This document shows, one piece after another, positions 7,368 to 60,940 of a stretch of DNA of 61,016 nucleotides. The notes below the pieces were generated by a model. That model was not told the DNA's origin, searched no databases, and worked only from the letters and a program-made list of their open reading frames with translations. A program made the translations under genes and the position numbers. The DNA comes from an uncultured Alphaproteobacteria bacterium. GTDB lineage: Bacteria > Pseudomonadota > Alphaproteobacteria > RF32 > CAG-239. The stretch covers positions 1 to 61,016 of the forward strand of contig CANPYS010000006.1 in NCBI GenBank assembly GCA_947588655.1. The letters are read 5' to 3'. Position 1 is the stretch's first letter. Every line of letters begins with the position of its first letter.

Positions 7368-8708
7368 CTACTCTTCCTTGTTCAAATATATTTTAAAATC
7401 GGCAATTTTTTGGCTTAATTCAGCCGAAGCGTTTTGTTGTTCCGCCTGTTTTAAGTTTTGGCGCGCCGCCTTTTTATTGCCGATGTCAGCATTCCAACGC
7501 GCCGTGGCATAAAACATTGCAGCTTTGTTATCCTGCTCGGCATAAGCCCGCGAAAGATAAAGCCAAGCAATGGGCATGGGGCGTTTGATTTGTATTTGAT
7601 TTAACACATTAATAATTTCTTGCAATTCGGCTTTAGATTTGTTGGTATCAAGCGCGGCGCTTGCCCAGGCAAGTTTTATTTCTGCCGATTGTGGCCGGTA
7701 TTTTAAGGCTTGCTTGTAAGCTGTTACCGCTTTTTGCGCCATACCTCTTTCGGCATAAAATTGACCTTTTAACTCATAAAAAAATGGATTTTGCGGCTCG
7801 GCGGCAATCAGCCGATCAAGTGTTTCAAGCGCCAAAGGCAAGTTATTTTCGCGGTAATACAAAATAGCGTGCGCATATTGCGCCTCTTTTGTTTGATTGC
7901 TTTTCGGATAAAGTTTCCATGCTCTGTCAGTCGGCAACAAAAAGCCCGCCAACTTTGCCTTTACCATTTTAAGCGCATCATCTAACGCTGATTTTTGCGG
8001 CGCGTGCGACTCTTTTGCCGCCTTTTCAAAAAAATTCTGGCGCTCCGAGCTCAAAGGGTGTGTTCTGAAATAAGCATCTTCCTCAATGCCAGTTAAGCGG
8101 TTGTTTTGGCGGATTTTCTTCATAAAATCGCGTAGGCCAGCCGGCGATTGATTCGTTTGACGCAAAATTGCCACCGCGCTTTCATCGGCACTGCGTTCAT
8201 CGGCTAAATGATAATGTAAAATATTGCTCAAAAGGCTAGATTGCGAGCCCATAAGCACCGCCATAGCGGCATCGCCCTGTCCTGCCGCCGCCGCGCCGCC
8301 CGCCGCTAAAAGCGAAACAATCTGAAGCGTGTTTAAATCCTTCATTTTAAGTTGCTGGCGCGCAATGTGCCCTGCTTGAATATGACCTGTTTCATGCGCT
8401 AAAATACCACTGATTTGATTAACATTGTCCGCCGCCAACAATACACCCGTGTTGATAAACATATTGTTGCCCATAGTCACAAAAGCATTAAGCTCCGTAT
8501 CGTCAAGCAGATGTATTTTATCAGGACTAAAAGGAATGTCCGCCGCCTGATAAAGCGGACGAACAATCTGATGTAAAAGGCTTTCCGTTTCATCATCAGA
8601 TATGATGCTTGGTTCTTTTGGAGATGCTTCGGCAGATAGCGTCAGCAACCCAAAAAAACCAAGCACAAACAAAATGATGACAATTATCCGATTAACTTGC
8701 GCCACCAC
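7368..8708 (-). CDS. M48-family metalloprotease with TPR region (BepA-like)
   Basis: Signal peptide, HETGHIQAGH zinc motif, C-terminal TPRs. Confidence 0.85.
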   Translation of the reverse strand: MVAQVNRIIVIILFVLGFFGLLTLSAEASPKEPSIISDDETESLLHQIVRPLYQAADIPFSPDKIHLLDDTELNAFVTMGNNMFINTGVLLAADNVNQISGILAHETGHIQAGHIARQQLKMKDLNTLQIVSLLAAGGAAAAGQGDAAMAVLMGSQSSLLSNILHYHLADERSADESAVAILRQTNQSPAGLRDFMKKIRQNNRLTGIEEDAYFRTHPLSSERQNFFEKAAKESHAPQKSALDDALKMVKAKLAGFLLPTDRAWKLYPKSNQTKEAQYAHAILYYRENNLPLALETLDRLIAAEPQNPFFYELKGQFYAERGMAQKAVTAYKQALKYRPQSAEIKLAWASAALDTNKSKAELQEIINVLNQIQIKRPMPIAWLYLSRAYAEQDNKAAMFYATARWNADIGNKKAARQNLKQAEQQNASAELSQKIADFKIYLNKEE

Positions 8709-10954
8709 GCTGTTTTTCCCTCTTTTTCAGATTCGGTATTATTCGCAATATTTAAGTCTTTATCGCTGGAATACAACAGAACGGGCGACTCTTTATTTTC
8801 AGAATTATAATTGCCTTCAGCATTATAATTGCGCCGATAACCGCGCCCGCGACGAAGAAAGCGTGAGCGGCGTCCACGGTAGCGTCTTTGCGGTTGTTCC
8901 GTCTCAAAGTTTTCTCTTTGAAAATCAGGCTCTTCTACAGACGCCCTTGTTTCAGGCTCGGCATAAGATGTCGGCGCCTGTTTTTCAACCGGTTCGGCTG
9001 TCTTTGCCAATTTGGCGCGCTCAAACCGATAATCGGCAACATTAATGATAGAATTATCCGCCTCAATAGAAATTTCCATTTTGTAACGGTTTTCTAAATC
9101 ATTTAAATTCTGCCGCTTTTGGTTCAAAAGATAAAAAGCGGTATCTGAAGGAACAAACACCTTTAAGCGTGCCGACCGATTTTTTGTTCCCTCTTCTTCA
9201 ATGGCGCGCAAAACAAGCATAGCGCCAGATTCAGTCGTGCGAACAAGCCCTTGTCCATGACAATGCGGACAAGCCTCATAATTGCTTTCAATAAAGGAAG
9301 AGTGCATTCTTTGACGCGAAATTTCAAGCAAGCCAAAGCAACTCATCTTAGCAACCTGAATGCGCGAACGATCGTTCTTTAAAGCTTCTTTCATACGTTT
9401 TTCAACCGCATGATTGTTTTGAGGCTCTTCCATATCAATAAAGTCAACCACAATCAAGCCCGCCAAATTACGCATCCGGAGTTGTTTAGCAATCTCGTCT
9501 GCGGCTTCTAAGTTTGTTTTTAAGGCTGTTTCTTCAATGTCTTTTTCATGCGTCGCGCGTCCAGAGTTAACGTCAATAGCGACAAGCGCCTCTGTCGGAT
9601 TAATAACCAAATAGCCACCGGATTCAAGTTGGACAATCGGGCTATGAAGTTTATCTAACTGTGTTTCAACCTGAAAGCGCTGAAATACAGGCATTTCGCC
9701 CGACTTGCGACATTTGATTTTTTTCAGGTTATGCGGTGATAAAATTTTTACAAAATCACGCGCCGCCTTAAAAGCCTCATTGCCGTCCACAATCACTTCC
9801 GAGATATCTTTAGTGTACATATCGCGCAAAGCCCTTTTGATGAGGTTGCCTTCCTCATAAATCAGCGAAGGAACTTTGTTTTCAAGCGCGTCGTGCCGAA
9901 TATGATTCCATGTTCTGATTAAAAAGTTGTAATCGCGCACAATGTCAGCTTTTGTTTTATCTTCGCCAGCCGTGCGGATAATCATAGACATATCGGTTGT
10001 TAAAGGAAGTTCACGCATAATGTCTTTAAGGCGCTTGCGGTCTACCGCATTGGTAATTTTGCGCGAAACACCGCCGCTTTTAATGCGATTAGGCATTAAA
10101 ACGCAATAACGCCCTGCCAAAGATAAATATGTGGTGCAAGCTGCGCCTTTGTTGCCACGCTCTTCCTTAACAACTTGAATGAGCAATGTTTGCCCCTCGG
10201 AAATAACATCTTGAATGCTACAATAATGATAAAGTTTGCGCGCGCGAATAAGCTTGCGTTGCATTTCAAAATCGCCTTCAAAGTCGGCATCGTCATCATC
10301 AAAAGACGTTTCTTCGGTTTCTTCTTCCTCGGGTTGTTCTTCTTTTTCGTTTTCATAAACCACAGCGTCTTGTGTTTCATCTTCCGCCGCCAAAGTTTTA
10401 GGCTCTTCCTTTTCTTTGGCTTTTTTGGCTCGTGCCGAGGCGCGGCGTGTGTATCTGCCTTTTTTAACCGGTTTTTCTTGAGAATCAGTTTCAGGCGTTT
10501 CCACAACTTGTTCAGCCTCTTGAGGGGCTTGAAGTTCTTCTTGTTGCGCATTTTCAGAAGCGGCGGCCTCCTCTTTCAAACGCGCCTTATATTGCGCTTG
10601 CTTTTCCGCGCGCCAACGCTCGCGTTGTTCTTCACGCTCTTTTATATATTGCTTTTTACGTTCAATAATCTCGTCCGTTTCACGTTCAACAGCTTCTAAA
10701 ACTTCTGGTCGGACATTATAATAATCCGGATGAATTTCCCCAAAAGCCAAAAAACCGTGCCGATTGCCACCGTAATCCACAAACGCCGCTTGCAAAGACG
10801 GCTCAACCCGAATAACTTTGGCGGTGTAAATATTACCTTTTATTTGGCGGCGAAATGTTGATTCAAATTCAACGTCTTCAACTTTGTTGCCATCAACAAT
10901 CACAACCCGCGTTTCTTCAGGCTGTGTGTCATCAATTAACATTCTTTTGGTCAT
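8684..10954 (-). CDS. rne: Ribonuclease E/G
   Basis: MTKRMLIDDTQPEETRVVIVDGNKVEDVEFES, S1 region with acidic insert, LVVIDVNSGR-like motif, CPHCHGQG zinc link. Confidence 0.92.
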   Translation of the reverse strand: MTKRMLIDDTQPEETRVVIVDGNKVEDVEFESTFRRQIKGNIYTAKVIRVEPSLQAAFVDYGGNRHGFLAFGEIHPDYYNVRPEVLEAVERETDEIIERKKQYIKEREEQRERWRAEKQAQYKARLKEEAAASENAQQEELQAPQEAEQVVETPETDSQEKPVKKGRYTRRASARAKKAKEKEEPKTLAAEDETQDAVVYENEKEEQPEEEETEETSFDDDDADFEGDFEMQRKLIRARKLYHYCSIQDVISEGQTLLIQVVKEERGNKGAACTTYLSLAGRYCVLMPNRIKSGGVSRKITNAVDRKRLKDIMRELPLTTDMSMIIRTAGEDKTKADIVRDYNFLIRTWNHIRHDALENKVPSLIYEEGNLIKRALRDMYTKDISEVIVDGNEAFKAARDFVKILSPHNLKKIKCRKSGEMPVFQRFQVETQLDKLHSPIVQLESGGYLVINPTEALVAIDVNSGRATHEKDIEETALKTNLEAADEIAKQLRMRNLAGLIVVDFIDMEEPQNNHAVEKRMKEALKNDRSRIQVAKMSCFGLLEISRQRMHSSFIESNYEACPHCHGQGLVRTTESGAMLVLRAIEEEGTKNRSARLKVFVPSDTAFYLLNQKRQNLNDLENRYKMEISIEADNSIINVADYRFERAKLAKTAEPVEKQAPTSYAEPETRASVEEPDFQRENFETEQPQRRYRGRRSRFLRRGRGYRRNYNAEGNYNSENKESPVLLYSSDKDLNIANNTESEKEGKTAWWRKLIG

Positions 10955-11330
10955 TTTTCCCTCTTTAAAAAAGCATCGCTTTATTTTACCAACCAAGGGA
11001 ATCTCAAATACAACAAACGGCGCTTTCAAGCGCACCATAAGCTTTATTGCTCTCAGGCGCTTTATATTTGAACAGCGCCCTATTTAAAAAACCCTTGCAT
11101 CTACATCAAACCGGCGGCTCATTATATCGCATTGATATAACAGCGGCACCTCAGACAGGGCAAAAATTTTCTACGCTCAACACCCTATAATCAGTGCATA
11201 AAATTTCCGATTTGCTTTTACAATACAGAATTTCTTTTAAAATACAATACTAAATTTAAGTTTAAGCAAAATATTTCTTAACACATTGGTAAGGAGTTCT
11301 TGTTAAAATAAGGGAATACGTGGAGAAAAA

Positions 11331-29567: not shown

Positions 29568-30062
29568 TTAACAACAGGTCTTCGCGAAGTTAATGACTTC
29601 GTTGTTGCCATGTTCAACAATCATCTTGAACTGGCTTTCAGTTATCGGTTTCCCGATTTCTTTTTTGTGCTTTAAGCACTTTAGAATCTCGGACGTGTAG
29701 CCGCGTTTGATTAGAATACCAAACCCGTTGACACCTAAATCGTGCAATGAAACATAGCACAAAATCTCTTCCCTATTGCCGCGTTTCATCAGCTCTACTT
29801 CGGCATCTTGGCACAGCCACTTTGCCTCAATGTACGACATTATCGCCTGATGCGCACCTTGGCGGATGAAATACGGCTCGGCGGTATCCGAAAAGCAGAA
29901 ATTTTTAATATATGACATCAGCTCCTGCCGGTGTCCACGCTTAATAAAGCTAATTTCCGCATTCGGGTTGCGAAAATAATTTTCAGCTATAAAAGCTGAA
30001 ATTTTCTGCGGATCGCCCCCTGTAACAAGGGACAATTCCTGATTTTTGGTCAATTTTTCCAT
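29568..30062 (-). CDS. Short helical-repeat protein
   Basis: Repeats AEISFIKRGHRQELMSYI / AEPYFIRQGAHQAIMSYI / AEVELMKRGNREEILCYV / FGILIKRGYTSEILKCL. Confidence 0.7.
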   Translation of the reverse strand: MEKLTKNQELSLVTGGDPQKISAFIAENYFRNPNAEISFIKRGHRQELMSYIKNFCFSDTAEPYFIRQGAHQAIMSYIEAKWLCQDAEVELMKRGNREEILCYVSLHDLGVNGFGILIKRGYTSEILKCLKHKKEIGKPITESQFKMIVEHGNNEVINFAKTCC

Positions 30063-30144
30063 AATAAAATAATATATATAAATTTGACATAAATATAACT
30101 TTGCATCCTTGATATAAGCACTTTTTAACACTTTTGTCAACAAA

Positions 30145-54081: not shown

Positions 54082-54537
54082 TCAGTCGCCCAAAAAATTA
54101 TTAATCCGCTCGGTTAAGTATTGTTCATAATCTTCGGAGGCTTCTATCAAATTTTGCGGATTAGCAATTTTTTGATAACCCAAGCTTTGCCCGTCCTGCA
54201 CCTTAACCAGCACCACCGAAAGCGGCGCGCTTAAATTATAAGCGTTGATGAAGTCGTATTCTTCATCGTTTTGATAATCTATCACAAAAAGACTGTATTT
54301 GCCCGCGTAATACTGATTATAAATTTGTTCTGTCAGCGCAATTGTTTCAGGGCATTGATAGCACTGATTTCCATTATAAAAAATGTAAATGATTGATTTG
54401 TTTTTGTTGCCGTCTTGAGCCGCAAAATACTCGTTTAACGGCTGATTAGGCGCAAAATTGCCCTCAAAAGCCGGTTGCGCCCATACTGAAACATAAACCA
54501 ATGCCACCAAAACAAATGCCAAAAAAAGTTGCTTCAT
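54082..54537 (-). CDS. Exported thioredoxin-fold-like protein with CYQC
   Basis: Signal peptide; IIYIFYNGNQCYQCPE...LSAPLSVVLVK. Confidence 0.55.
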   Translation of the reverse strand: MKQLFLAFVLVALVYVSVWAQPAFEGNFAPNQPLNEYFAAQDGNKNKSIIYIFYNGNQCYQCPETIALTEQIYNQYYAGKYSLFVIDYQNDEEYDFINAYNLSAPLSVVLVKVQDGQSLGYQKIANPQNLIEASEDYEQYLTERINNFLGD

Positions 54538-57944: not shown

Positions 57945-57958
57945 AAATTTTCACACAA

Positions 57959-57993
57959 AAAAACAGCGTTCCCGTAAGGGAGCGCTGTTTTAT
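57959..57993 (+). terminator. Terminator after the 57186 CDS
   Basis: AACAGCG-ttcccgtaaggga-GCGCTGTTTTATT stem; A/T tails on both sides, may be bidirectional. Confidence 0.75.
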
Positions 57994-58011
57994 TCATAGT
58001 AATAGTTTGGC

Positions 58012-58830
58012 TCAGAGCCGCCCTTTGTAGGCGGCCTTTTTGTTGGGCGAAGTCCAATGGCCTCGTTTGAGACCAAAAACCCAACCCACGGTAACGTCTG
58101 CAAAGACGTTACTCTTCGTCACGTTCCAGAACGCGTCTGGAATAACTTTGACGCCGGCGCGCACCACGAAGGCGTGCGGCTTGGCAAAGTTATTGTGACG
58201 ATACTCAAGCCCGCCTCCAAAGGCGAGTCCTGAGCCTTTATGGTCAACGTACCTCACGTACTGTTGACCATCGCCGTCGGTTACATTATCAACCAGCTGT
58301 TTATGCTGGTCAAAAATGTAGCCTACCTCCCCGAAGAGGGAGAGGCAGTGCCGCCACGGCTTGGGATAAATTACATTCACGTGCAGGGCCGCATTGGCCA
58401 TGTACGTGAAGAATTTATCCCCGGAGTCTATGGACTCCTTATTCAGGAGCCTATAGGATACTCCGGTTGACACCCGATACGACAGGTGTTTCCCGTCGTA
58501 TCGGAAGCCAACGAAGGCTTCCGGCGAGAAGTGATCCTCGCGGGAGATGTAATTCCCGCCGAGATCAACTTCTATGCCGATACCGGTGACCTTGGATATT
58601 TCCAAGATCTCGCCGTTATCGGCGAACCGAACAACCTGGAAATATTCCTTGTTGTTCAGTTTCTTTGCGTAATCCACCACCGTGGGGTGGTAGGTTACGC
58701 TGTCTTTTACGGCCACCGTGTCCGCGACGGCAGCTGTGAGGCTGTCGGTGGTGGAAACGGTGGCATTAGCCGGAACTATAGCCGCGGAAAAAAGGGCGGC
58801 AGCAAATAAGAAAAGACTATTCTTTCTCAT
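58012..58830 (-). CDS. Bacteroidota-like outer-membrane/exported protein, palindrome-saturated gene
   Basis: Signal peptide MRKNSLFLFAAALFSAAIVPANA; beta-rich body; overlapped end to end by hairpins. Confidence 0.8.
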   Translation of the reverse strand: MRKNSLFLFAAALFSAAIVPANATVSTTDSLTAAVADTVAVKDSVTYHPTVVDYAKKLNNKEYFQVVRFADNGEILEISKVTGIGIEVDLGGNYISREDHFSPEAFVGFRYDGKHLSYRVSTGVSYRLLNKESIDSGDKFFTYMANAALHVNVIYPKPWRHCLSLFGEVGYIFDQHKQLVDNVTDGDGQQYVRYVDHKGSGLAFGGGLEYRHNNFAKPHAFVVRAGVKVIPDAFWNVTKSNVFADVTVGWVFGLKRGHWTSPNKKAAYKGRL

Positions 58831-58873
58831 ATCTGTGTTTTTTTTATTTTTTTATTTATTCCCGATTATTGTT

Positions 58874-60361
58874 TTACTTCAAGCACACCGTCGGGTTCCC
58901 GTTGTGTTGAATAATAAGTTCACCGCTTTCGCCAAAGCTGTAGCTATAGTCGTTCATATAAACGCTATAGTTACCACCTCTCCAGCCCCAGATCTTAAGA
59001 TCAAAGGACGGGACGATGGCTTTCTTACTACCATTTTCATAGTAGTAAGCGCCCTTTGCTTCGTCGCGAGCGACAGCCGGACGCCAGCAGTTGCCATTCC
59101 ACCAAGCACTGTTGTACTCTGTGGAATAGTTGCCGGTTACGAAATTTCCCGAGAGGATAACCTCAAGGGTTATTTCATCGTTTAAACCGACAACGCCACA
59201 CACTGCGCCGTTTGATGTCGTCAGACACCATGCTTTAACAGCATAATGTCCACCGACATTATCGGCGGGAGCAGCGGATACGGCAAACCCCTTAATTTCA
59301 CCCCATTCAGCCGGCGTGTTCTTTTCAAACACTTTCGGCTGCTCTTCCTCCTGTTCAGAAGGAGTGGGATTAACCTGTTCCGGATCTTTCTCCGGTTCTA
59401 CAGGCGTAACGTCAACGACGGGGTCGTCGTTGTCGTTATCTTTATCGGAGTCGTCGCCAGTGGCGGGTTCGTCGCCAGCGGGGTCGTCGTCAGACGGCTC
59501 GTCAGCGGGGTCGTCGTCGCCAGTGGCGGGTTCGTCGCCAGCGGGTTCGTCAGACGGCTCGTCAGCGGGGTCGTCGTCGGAATCGTCGGGATTGAGGTCA
59601 GGCACATCCGGTGTTACCACCGTGGTGTCTTTCGGCTCGGGTTGAACCGAGTCGTTTCTTTCCACGAGAAGAACTCGTGAGAAAGAAATTTCTACCTCTT
59701 TTTCTTTGGTTTCTAACTCTATACCGTTTTCACGGTAAACGTTGATAATAACATTCAAATTTACATGAATGTTATTCACCAAAGAATCTTCTGTTTCATC
59801 CTCAGAGCAATCCATGCCCAAGAATGAAACTTCGGAAATCTCGGCGTATCCGAGGGTGTCCTCACCAAGGATACCCTTTTCATTTTTTACAGACACCTTA
59901 ATGGTATCTGCGTCAAACGAAAAAGCATATTCCCGGTTGGATTTCCTCAACTCCAGTCCGCCCTCTTTAACAGAGGTGGTATCCAGAGCCGAGGCGCTCT
60001 CCTCGGTTTCAACGACTCCCAACTCCTCGCGGTTGGATACATACCGAGTTGCCGGTACGTTCCAACTCATGACAGAGTTGGTGGCCACCCGACGCTCAGT
60101 CGCGTCGGCGGAGGAGGAACTCAACTCCACAACGTTGAGTTGCTCAACGTTGAGAGTGGAGTCTTCTATTTCAACTCCATACGAGAAGCTCGTACGGAGA
60201 AGAATAGAATTCTCCTCTACCACCGTGTCGCGTTGTGCAGGCACAGCGATGGTTTCCAATTGTCCTCCCAACCCCTCCGAATCCACGCAAGAGGTCATTC
60301 CAAAAGCCGCAATAAAAAGGCTGGCGGCTGCGATTAAGTAACTTTTTGCTACTTTTTTCAT
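58874..60361 (-). CDS. Bacteroidota-like lipoprotein with Asp/Glu/Pro-rich linker, palindrome-rich gene
   Basis: MKKVAKSYLIAAASLFIAAFGMTSC lipobox; DDPADEPSDEPAGDEPATGDD repeats; AT-rich upstream region. Confidence 0.8.
   Translation of the reverse strand: MKKVAKSYLIAAASLFIAAFGMTSCVDSEGLGGQLETIAVPAQRDTVVEENSILLRTSFSYGVEIEDSTLNVEQLNVVELSSSSADATERRVATNSVMSWNVPATRYVSNREELGVVETEESASALDTTSVKEGGLELRKSNREYAFSFDADTIKVSVKNEKGILGEDTLGYAEISEVSFLGMDCSEDETEDSLVNNIHVNLNVIINVYRENGIELETKEKEVEISFSRVLLVERNDSVQPEPKDTTVVTPDVPDLNPDDSDDDPADEPSDEPAGDEPATGDDDPADEPSDDDPAGDEPATGDDSDKDNDNDDPVVDVTPVEPEKDPEQVNPTPSEQEEEQPKVFEKNTPAEWGEIKGFAVSAAPADNVGGHYAVKAWCLTTSNGAVCGVVGLNDEITLEVILSGNFVTGNYSTEYNSAWWNGNCWRPAVARDEAKGAYYYENGSKKAIVPSFDLKIWGWRGGNYSVYMNDYSYSFGESGELIIQHNGNPTVCLK
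59440..59585 (-). repeat. In-frame repeat encoding the D/E/P-rich linker
   Basis: Two near-identical blocks of gtcgtcgccagtggcgggttcgtcgccagcgg...gacggctcgtcagcgggg. Confidence 0.85.
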
Positions 60362-60597
60362 AACTTTTGTTTTTATTTATTTTTTATTTTTTTTATTTTA
60401 AAAAAACACCGCATATGAAAAATCTTTTCATTCTTGATAATAATAAGAATAAAAGCATACATAATAAGATGTTTACATTTTTAATGTACCATATTTTAAG
60501 CTCCCTTGCAACAAAAAAATGCATTCCAAATGCATTTTGTCGTATTTTTTGGCAAAAAGTCATAAAAATGCCTTTTTGCTTAGCGTTCTTCTCCCAA

Positions 60598-60745: not shown

Positions 60746-60906
60746 GTTTTGCGCTTAACACAAAGCCTACGGAAAAGAACGTTTCGGGATCTCATAAAGA
60801 GATGCTGAAACAAGTTCAGCATGACAATTTGATTTGTTTTTCGTGGATGTTTTGCCTTTTTGCTTAGCGCTCCCTTTCGGGTTCAAGTCCCACTGTTTAC
60901 CAATTT

Positions 60907-60940
60907 TTTAACCCCCTATCTATGCAGATAGGGGGTTAAA
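60907..60940. repeat. Long perfect inverted repeat
   Basis: TTTAACCCCCTATC-tatgca-GATAGGGGGTTAAA, 14-bp arms. Confidence 0.85.

Follow-up and report, generated by a model that had tools for sequence, protein, structure and literature searches.

Dense local hairpins in the translated region of a surface-protein operon from an uncultured alphaproteobacterial family, very probably selected at the RNA level

Background

Dense local pairing in translated RNA is familiar from the genomes of RNA viruses and RNA phages, where hairpins run throughout the coding sequence and where it is their density, and not the exact hairpins, that is conserved. Palindromes in bacterial chromosomes are known in another form, as palindromic repeat families such as the Rickettsia palindromic elements and the REP sequences, which place many palindromes within or near genes. 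The operon described here, found in a 61,016-nt stretch of an uncultured member of the Alphaproteobacteria (the window, CANPYS010000006.1), shares its dense hairpins with the RNA viruses and phages but is part of a bacterial chromosome and not of an RNA genome. Unlike the copies of a Rickettsia element or a REP sequence, which share one sequence, its palindromes all differ from one another and form no repeat family, so the operon does not belong to that class. We found no precedent in the literature for bacterial coding genes saturated with palindromes.

For bacterial coding regions in general, a survey based on codon shuffling, as it is cited in PMC6544989, puts about 2.5% of ORFs among those affected by selection on structure, with homologous genes of different species uncorrelated in their structuredness. 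In E. coli, abundant transcripts have the more structured coding regions (Del Campo et al. 2015, PMC4619774), and ORF-wide structure is anticorrelated with translation efficiency, with a rho of about -0.75 (Burkhardt et al. 2017, PMC5318159).

Results

The operon and its products

The two genes of the operon (Table 1) encode a lipoprotein and an outer-membrane beta-barrel protein, both with signal peptides. In the lipoprotein the lipobox is followed by an Asp-rich repeat linker and by a C-terminal domain (aa 342-495) that is restricted to the family and for which AlphaFold2 gives a confident fold (pLDDT 92.5); no PDB fold matched this domain below E 0.1, and it belongs to no Pfam family. In other genera, surface proteins of very large size also end in this type of domain. 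The AlphaFold2 model of the second protein is a barrel (pTM 0.62) whose Foldseek matches are OprF, NspA, OmpA and Ail (E ~1e-5), and the match to Pfam PF13505 is weak and below the cut-off. The model thus identifies it as a predicted small outer-membrane barrel with the shape of OmpA, OprF and Ail, of the OmpA/OmpX type. A sigma70-like promoter (60483-60511) probably serves the operon, and the regions upstream of homologous operons resemble its -35/-10 region. Neither an Rfam match at gathering score nor a tRNA feature was found in the window. The candidate of a conserved antisense gene was rejected, as antisense ORFs such as the one listed in Table 1 are not kept in the second allele.

This second allele, L007, lies on contig CANRKV010000022.1 of a rabbit-gut metagenome bin labelled Jeotgalicoccus, which is evidently mis-binned: we assign the allele to the species of the window because the gene flanking the operon is 98% identical. 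The copy number of the Asp/Pro/Glu-rich repeats of the linker (DDPADEPSDE) differs between the window and L007. In L007 three genes lie upstream of the operon, two resembling serine recombinases and one predicted to be of ATPase type, and the contig end of the window has a sequence resembling a tRNA 3' end, together with a terminator; an integration site adjoining the operon is possible.

Table 1. Coordinates of the operon, its signals and neighbouring features (positions refer to the window unless a locus is named)
Feature	Position	Strand	Remarks and basis
Lipoprotein gene (P0001)	58874..60361	-	hairpin-saturated; 495 aa; lipobox LFIAAFGMTSC
C-terminal domain of P0001	58877-59338	-	AlphaFold2 model
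Repeat linker of P0001	59440-59600	-	Asp/Pro/Glu-rich
Outer-membrane beta-barrel gene (P0002)	58012..58830	-	hairpin-saturated; 272 aa; largest structure excess found
Intercistronic gap	58831..58873	-	A-rich, 43 nt; read from sequence
Putative -35 box TTGCAA, operon promoter	60506..60511	-	17-nt spacer to -10 box; read from sequence
Putative -10 box TACATT	60483..60488	-	extended (TATGG upstream); read from sequence
Leader motif TGAAAAGATTTTTCATA, 5' untranslated region	60414..60430	-	exact matches before homologous operons
Leader motif, exact site in L126	16202-16218		
Leader motif, exact site in L143	98-114		
Leader motif, near-match in L006	1420		
Leader motif, near-match in L140	14536		
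Leader before lipoprotein start	60362..60402	-	A-rich, no Shine-Dalgarno sequence; unstructured by 40-nt MFE
Terminator-like hairpin AACAGCGTTCCC-gtaa-GGGAGCGCTGTT with T runs, operon end	57957..57994	-	inverted repeat
Antisense ORF (example)	59769-60341		not kept in L007
tRNA-3'-end-like sequence and terminator	60880-60915		at contig end
Recombinase-like and ATPase-type genes, L007	906-5874		upstream of operon
Operon, window	58012-60361		
Operon, L007	6361-8819		
Remnant of window-type C-terminus, L007	about 7906-7955		just after lipoprotein stop
RNase E gene (PF10150)	8684-11038	-	
ORF resembling a short repeat protein	29571-30143	-	moderate structure excess, -3.35 kcal/mol per 60 nt
ORF	54085-54537	-	moderate structure excess, -2.8 kcal/mol per 60 nt

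Size and specificity of the hairpin excess

A preliminary description of the lipoprotein gene had listed 24 palindromic intervals between 58884 and 60253, and all 24 hold self-complementary arms at the places given. They mostly have 6-12 paired positions and together cover 556 of the 1488 bases of the gene, the weak ones including 59309-59340, 60222-60253 and 60042-60057. We compared both genes of the operon with synonymous-codon shuffles that preserve the protein and the codon counts, and so preserve GC exactly. Perfect arms (at least 7 bp, loops of 3-20 nt) amount to 111 nt per kb in the lipoprotein gene and 118 nt per kb in the barrel gene, against 19.6-19.7 in the shuffles (z 6.4 and 5.3), i.e. 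about five to six times the shuffle level. The local folding energy on the mRNA strand, taken as the MFE of 60-nt stretches, departs from the shuffles by z -10.3 in the lipoprotein gene and -11.1 in the barrel gene, being lower than expected by 4.7 and 7.4 kcal/mol per 60 nt, respectively; for 21 other genes of the window, z ranges from 0 to -3.4. Tested gene by gene, the hairpin density therefore exceeds that of matched controls, as the preliminary description had anticipated, and chance or composition was rejected as a source by synonymous and by dinucleotide shuffles.

The excess is also specific to this operon. Across 586 ORFs from six related genomes the mean was -0.59 +/- 0.80 kcal/mol per 60 nt, and the only four ORFs below -4 were all members of the lipoprotein/barrel operon type, while 26 E. 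coli control genes, ompA and ompF included, averaged -0.52, none of them below -2.4. EF-Tu (+0.3 to -0.4) and GroEL (+0.2 to -1.5) of the family show no structure excess, which rules out high expression in general as the cause. Three other candidates were rejected: barrel genes in general, as the mean for about 35 other PF13505 loci is near -0.5; the C-terminal domain as carrier, as stand-alone large proteins with this domain and no barrel partner mostly range from -0.02 to -1.8; and the absence of a Shine-Dalgarno sequence, as 116 survey genes in which none was detectable average -0.67. The structure excess thus belongs to the lipoprotein/barrel operon and not to abundance, the barrel fold or the domain. 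Two further ORFs of the window show a moderate excess (Table 1).

RNA or DNA level

As synonymous shuffles lose the structure, its cause lies at the nucleic-acid level and not in the protein sequence, which bears out what had been proposed from the sequence. The argument then given, that recurrence in an unrelated protein points the same way, does not count as independent evidence, since both genes belong to a single operon, whose pairing is repeated across the family. The original wording, a DNA- or RNA-level cause, can be narrowed to RNA of the sense strand by four tests. One of them, compensatory change between alleles, is described below; the other three use 30 structured genes, which include relatives and are therefore not 30 independent cases. 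In extended stems, located with an energy-free stem finder that was also used for the loops, G.U pairs outnumber A.C pairs by 239 to 133 (p 4e-8), where the shuffles give 110 and 109; taken separately, the barrel gene of the window has 11 against 4 and the lipoprotein gene equal numbers, 10 and 10. Among 4-nt loops on perfect stems, GNRA occurs 27 times and its reverse complement 9 times, and UNCG 11 times against 3, so that the two loop types pooled stand at 38 against 12. Finally, in 27 of the 30 genes the sense strand has the greater structure excess of the two strands (p 3e-7), compared with 35 of 80 controls. Since a displaced DNA strand reads the same as the mRNA, the G.U asymmetry and the sense excess taken alone are also compatible with such a strand, and the tetraloop preference is the more RNA-specific test. 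Thus, the palindromes very probably have their cause in coding-strand RNA, through selection acting on the mRNA.

Anatomy of the folded message

The coding region holds about 24-29 hairpins per kb, small and recurring at near-regular density, with a median stem of 8-11 bp, loops mainly of 3-6 nt and gaps of a few nucleotides. Stems are mostly 5-13 bp long and the longest helix has 16 bp, which is shorter than RNase III uses well. Beyond stable tetraloops of the GAAA type, the hairpins have no loop or stem sequence in common. The leader and start are open, with a 40-nt MFE of 0 to -3 kcal/mol from -60 to -20, and the coding region is closed, at -10 to -18 kcal/mol in most of its length. Long single-stranded runs are few: 98 unpaired runs of at least 10 nt were observed, against 173 in the shuffles. 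RNWUU, the consensus of RNase E, occurs at 645 sites (620 expected), of which 131 are accessible (130 expected). With neither depletion nor preferential hiding of these sites, protection aimed at the RNase E motif is unsupported. A gene for RNase E lies in the same window (Table 1), and the genome also encodes an RNase E/G paralogue (contig C11) and an RNase J family relative that falls below the curated cut-off.

Alleles and compensatory change

In L007 the excess has z -12.2 for the lipoprotein gene and -11.2 for the barrel gene. Comparing the two alleles, 28 pairs, and 21 when the comparison is reversed, are altered on both sides and still paired, where slid partners give 0-7, and compensatory changes are likewise seen in the close pair L016b and L021. 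GroEL pairs have no such excess, and it fades in more distant pairs of alleles. Many hairpins are replaced and not kept, with positions that are unconserved between species, which suggests that the density of pairing is selected more than the individual hairpins. The operon is a hypervariable, fast-diverging locus, since its proteins are only about 79% identical in amino acid sequence between the window and L007, as against 98% for the flanking gene. The C-terminus of the lipoprotein differs in L007, where a remnant of the window type follows just after the stop codon.

Taken together, the energies relative to shuffles, the sense-strand signal and, in close pairs, the compensatory changes mark both genes as coding sequence very probably selected for local RNA structure.

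Homologous operons and origin

The family, probably a lineage of gut bacteria, carries the C-terminal domain in 43 of 128 genomes. Homologous operons in several genera show an excess of -2.2 to about -6 kcal/mol per 60 nt, generally weaker than in the window: -5.3 to -6.2 in L134 and L137, -4.3 in L139, -3.9 in L126 and L140, and about -2.2 to -3.9 in the others. The leader motif is found exactly in only 3 of the 128 genomes, from three genera, and always in front of this operon; near-matches occur in two further loci (Table 1), and in genus g3 the structured genes are not preceded by it. The motif is possibly a regulatory RNA or a protein site. A search of 385 genomes of the class returned the domain only in two members of this family. 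The spread of operon and domain across the family indicates that they are resident there and not a recent import, and the foreign donor lineage that had been assumed for the operon finds no support, with both the domain and the leader motif confined to the family in these searches. An origin from a phage, plasmid or virus was likewise rejected, no homologue having been found in the viral contigs, phages and plasmids searched.

Discussion

The mRNA of this single surface-protein operon has very probably been under long-standing and strong selection that filled its translated region with short local hairpins, the ribosome-loading leader being kept open. What is selected appears to be the density of pairing and not particular hairpins, so that hairpins turn over as alleles diverge. 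The benefit may be a compact, long-lived message, poorly accessible to enzymes that need a single-stranded stretch of at least about 10 nt, i.e. endonucleases, 3' or 5' exonucleases and possibly Rho, with stems too short to make good substrates for RNase III. A small number of transcripts would then be enough for the cell to sustain production of an abundant surface coat. We hold this explanation as a whole tentatively, at somewhat less than an even chance; if selection at the RNA level is granted, protection from decay would come close to an even chance as the function. Abundant E. coli transcripts, with their more structured coding regions (PMC4619774), speak for this explanation. The unstructured messages of EF-Tu and GroEL, normally very abundant, count against it, and the codon usage of the operon genes, at the 47th-67th percentile, is not like that of GroEL and so lends no independent support to high expression.

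The main rival to decay protection is translation pacing or tuning, in which the hairpins slow the ribosomes to match secretion and barrel assembly, or lower the yield per message. The RNA-level evidence agrees equally well with this reading and with decay protection, each of the two proteins has a signal peptide, and in E. coli the inverse relation of ORF structure to translation efficiency (PMC5318159, rho about -0.75) would favour a tuning role. However, other barrel genes of the same genomes and E. coli ompA and ompF are unstructured, and the leader is kept open, as it would be for high initiation, and so we consider pacing unlikely. A co-transcriptional role, in which structure in the nascent RNA or displaced strand keeps Rho from loading, prevents R-loops or protects single-stranded DNA against mutation, would account for the reduced long unpaired runs; the displaced DNA strand, which carries the mRNA sense, could yield part of the G.U (in DNA, G.T) asymmetry, and a DNA-level proposal of this kind is among the work cited in PMC6544989. 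Yet the preference for GNRA and UNCG argues for RNA, the presumably heavily transcribed EF-Tu and GroEL genes are without structure, and the sense strands do not have the C-richness of Rho sites, which makes this role improbable. We judge it slightly less probable still that the message is a dedicated RNA substrate, its hairpins, or leader motif and hairpins, being recognised by a protein for storage, localisation or regulated decay. The near-regular density of small hairpins and the constant position of the leader motif before the operon in its 3 of 128 genomes are in keeping with such a substrate, but a shared loop or stem sequence is lacking beyond stable tetraloops, hairpin positions differ between species, and the structured genes of genus g3 have no such motif before them.

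Two further explanations would do without any benefit at the RNA level. Template-switch copying of one arm onto the other could make and repair palindromes; many arms are perfectly Watson-Crick, arm copying could mimic compensatory changes, and the locus diverges fast (~79% amino acid identity against 98% for the flanking gene). DNA copying is nevertheless strand-symmetric and Watson-Crick, whereas we observe more G.U than A.C, more GNRA than its complement and an antisense strand with less structure than the sense strand, and other genes of the genome would not be spared. A mutational origin is thus already disfavoured and seems to us very improbable. An artefact of composition, codon usage or a foreign donor, with palindromes following the composition of GC-richer imports, might be suspected from a GC3 of 0.54-0.64 against a background of 0.40 +/- 0.08 and from the A-rich leaders without Shine-Dalgarno sequences; it is refuted by the loss of structure in shuffles with exact codon counts and GC, and homologues in many genera of the family, together with a domain and leader motif found only there, speak against a donor.

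In its broadest form, the explanation by selection for a decay-resistant message would mean that the family keeps "armoured" messages, consisting of a surface-coat operon, a private leader element, an almost completely folded translated region and a dedicated mode of decay evasion or translation, in which RNA shape would override neutral codon evolution across several genera as the exact hairpins turn over; this we regard as possible but doubtful. Synonymous sites in such genes are far from neutral, and the operon offers a clean natural system for the role of structure in translated mRNA, be it in stability, translation rate or co-transcriptional protection.

The closest known counterpart is the selection on coding-region structure described in 2019 (PMC6544989) and, as cited there, in the bacterial codon-shuffling survey, where folding is likewise stronger than in synonymous controls and is achieved through codon arrangement. 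Compared with that survey as cited there, the effect in the operon is much larger (z -10 to -12 and as much as 7.4 kcal/mol per 60 nt), confined to one operon and kept within a family. The ORF-wide structure units of E. coli (PMC5318159, PMC4619774) also involve whole ORFs and affect translation efficiency or abundance, but they are graded and transcriptome-wide, and the E. coli controls used here stay above -2.4. As far as these tools reach, the operon is an extreme, operon-specific variant of known selection on coding-region structure, in which the family-wide, eye-visible and RNA-specific signatures are new: a selection that is usually a faint trend, uncorrelated between homologues, is here visible by eye, concentrated in one operon and repeated in related genera.
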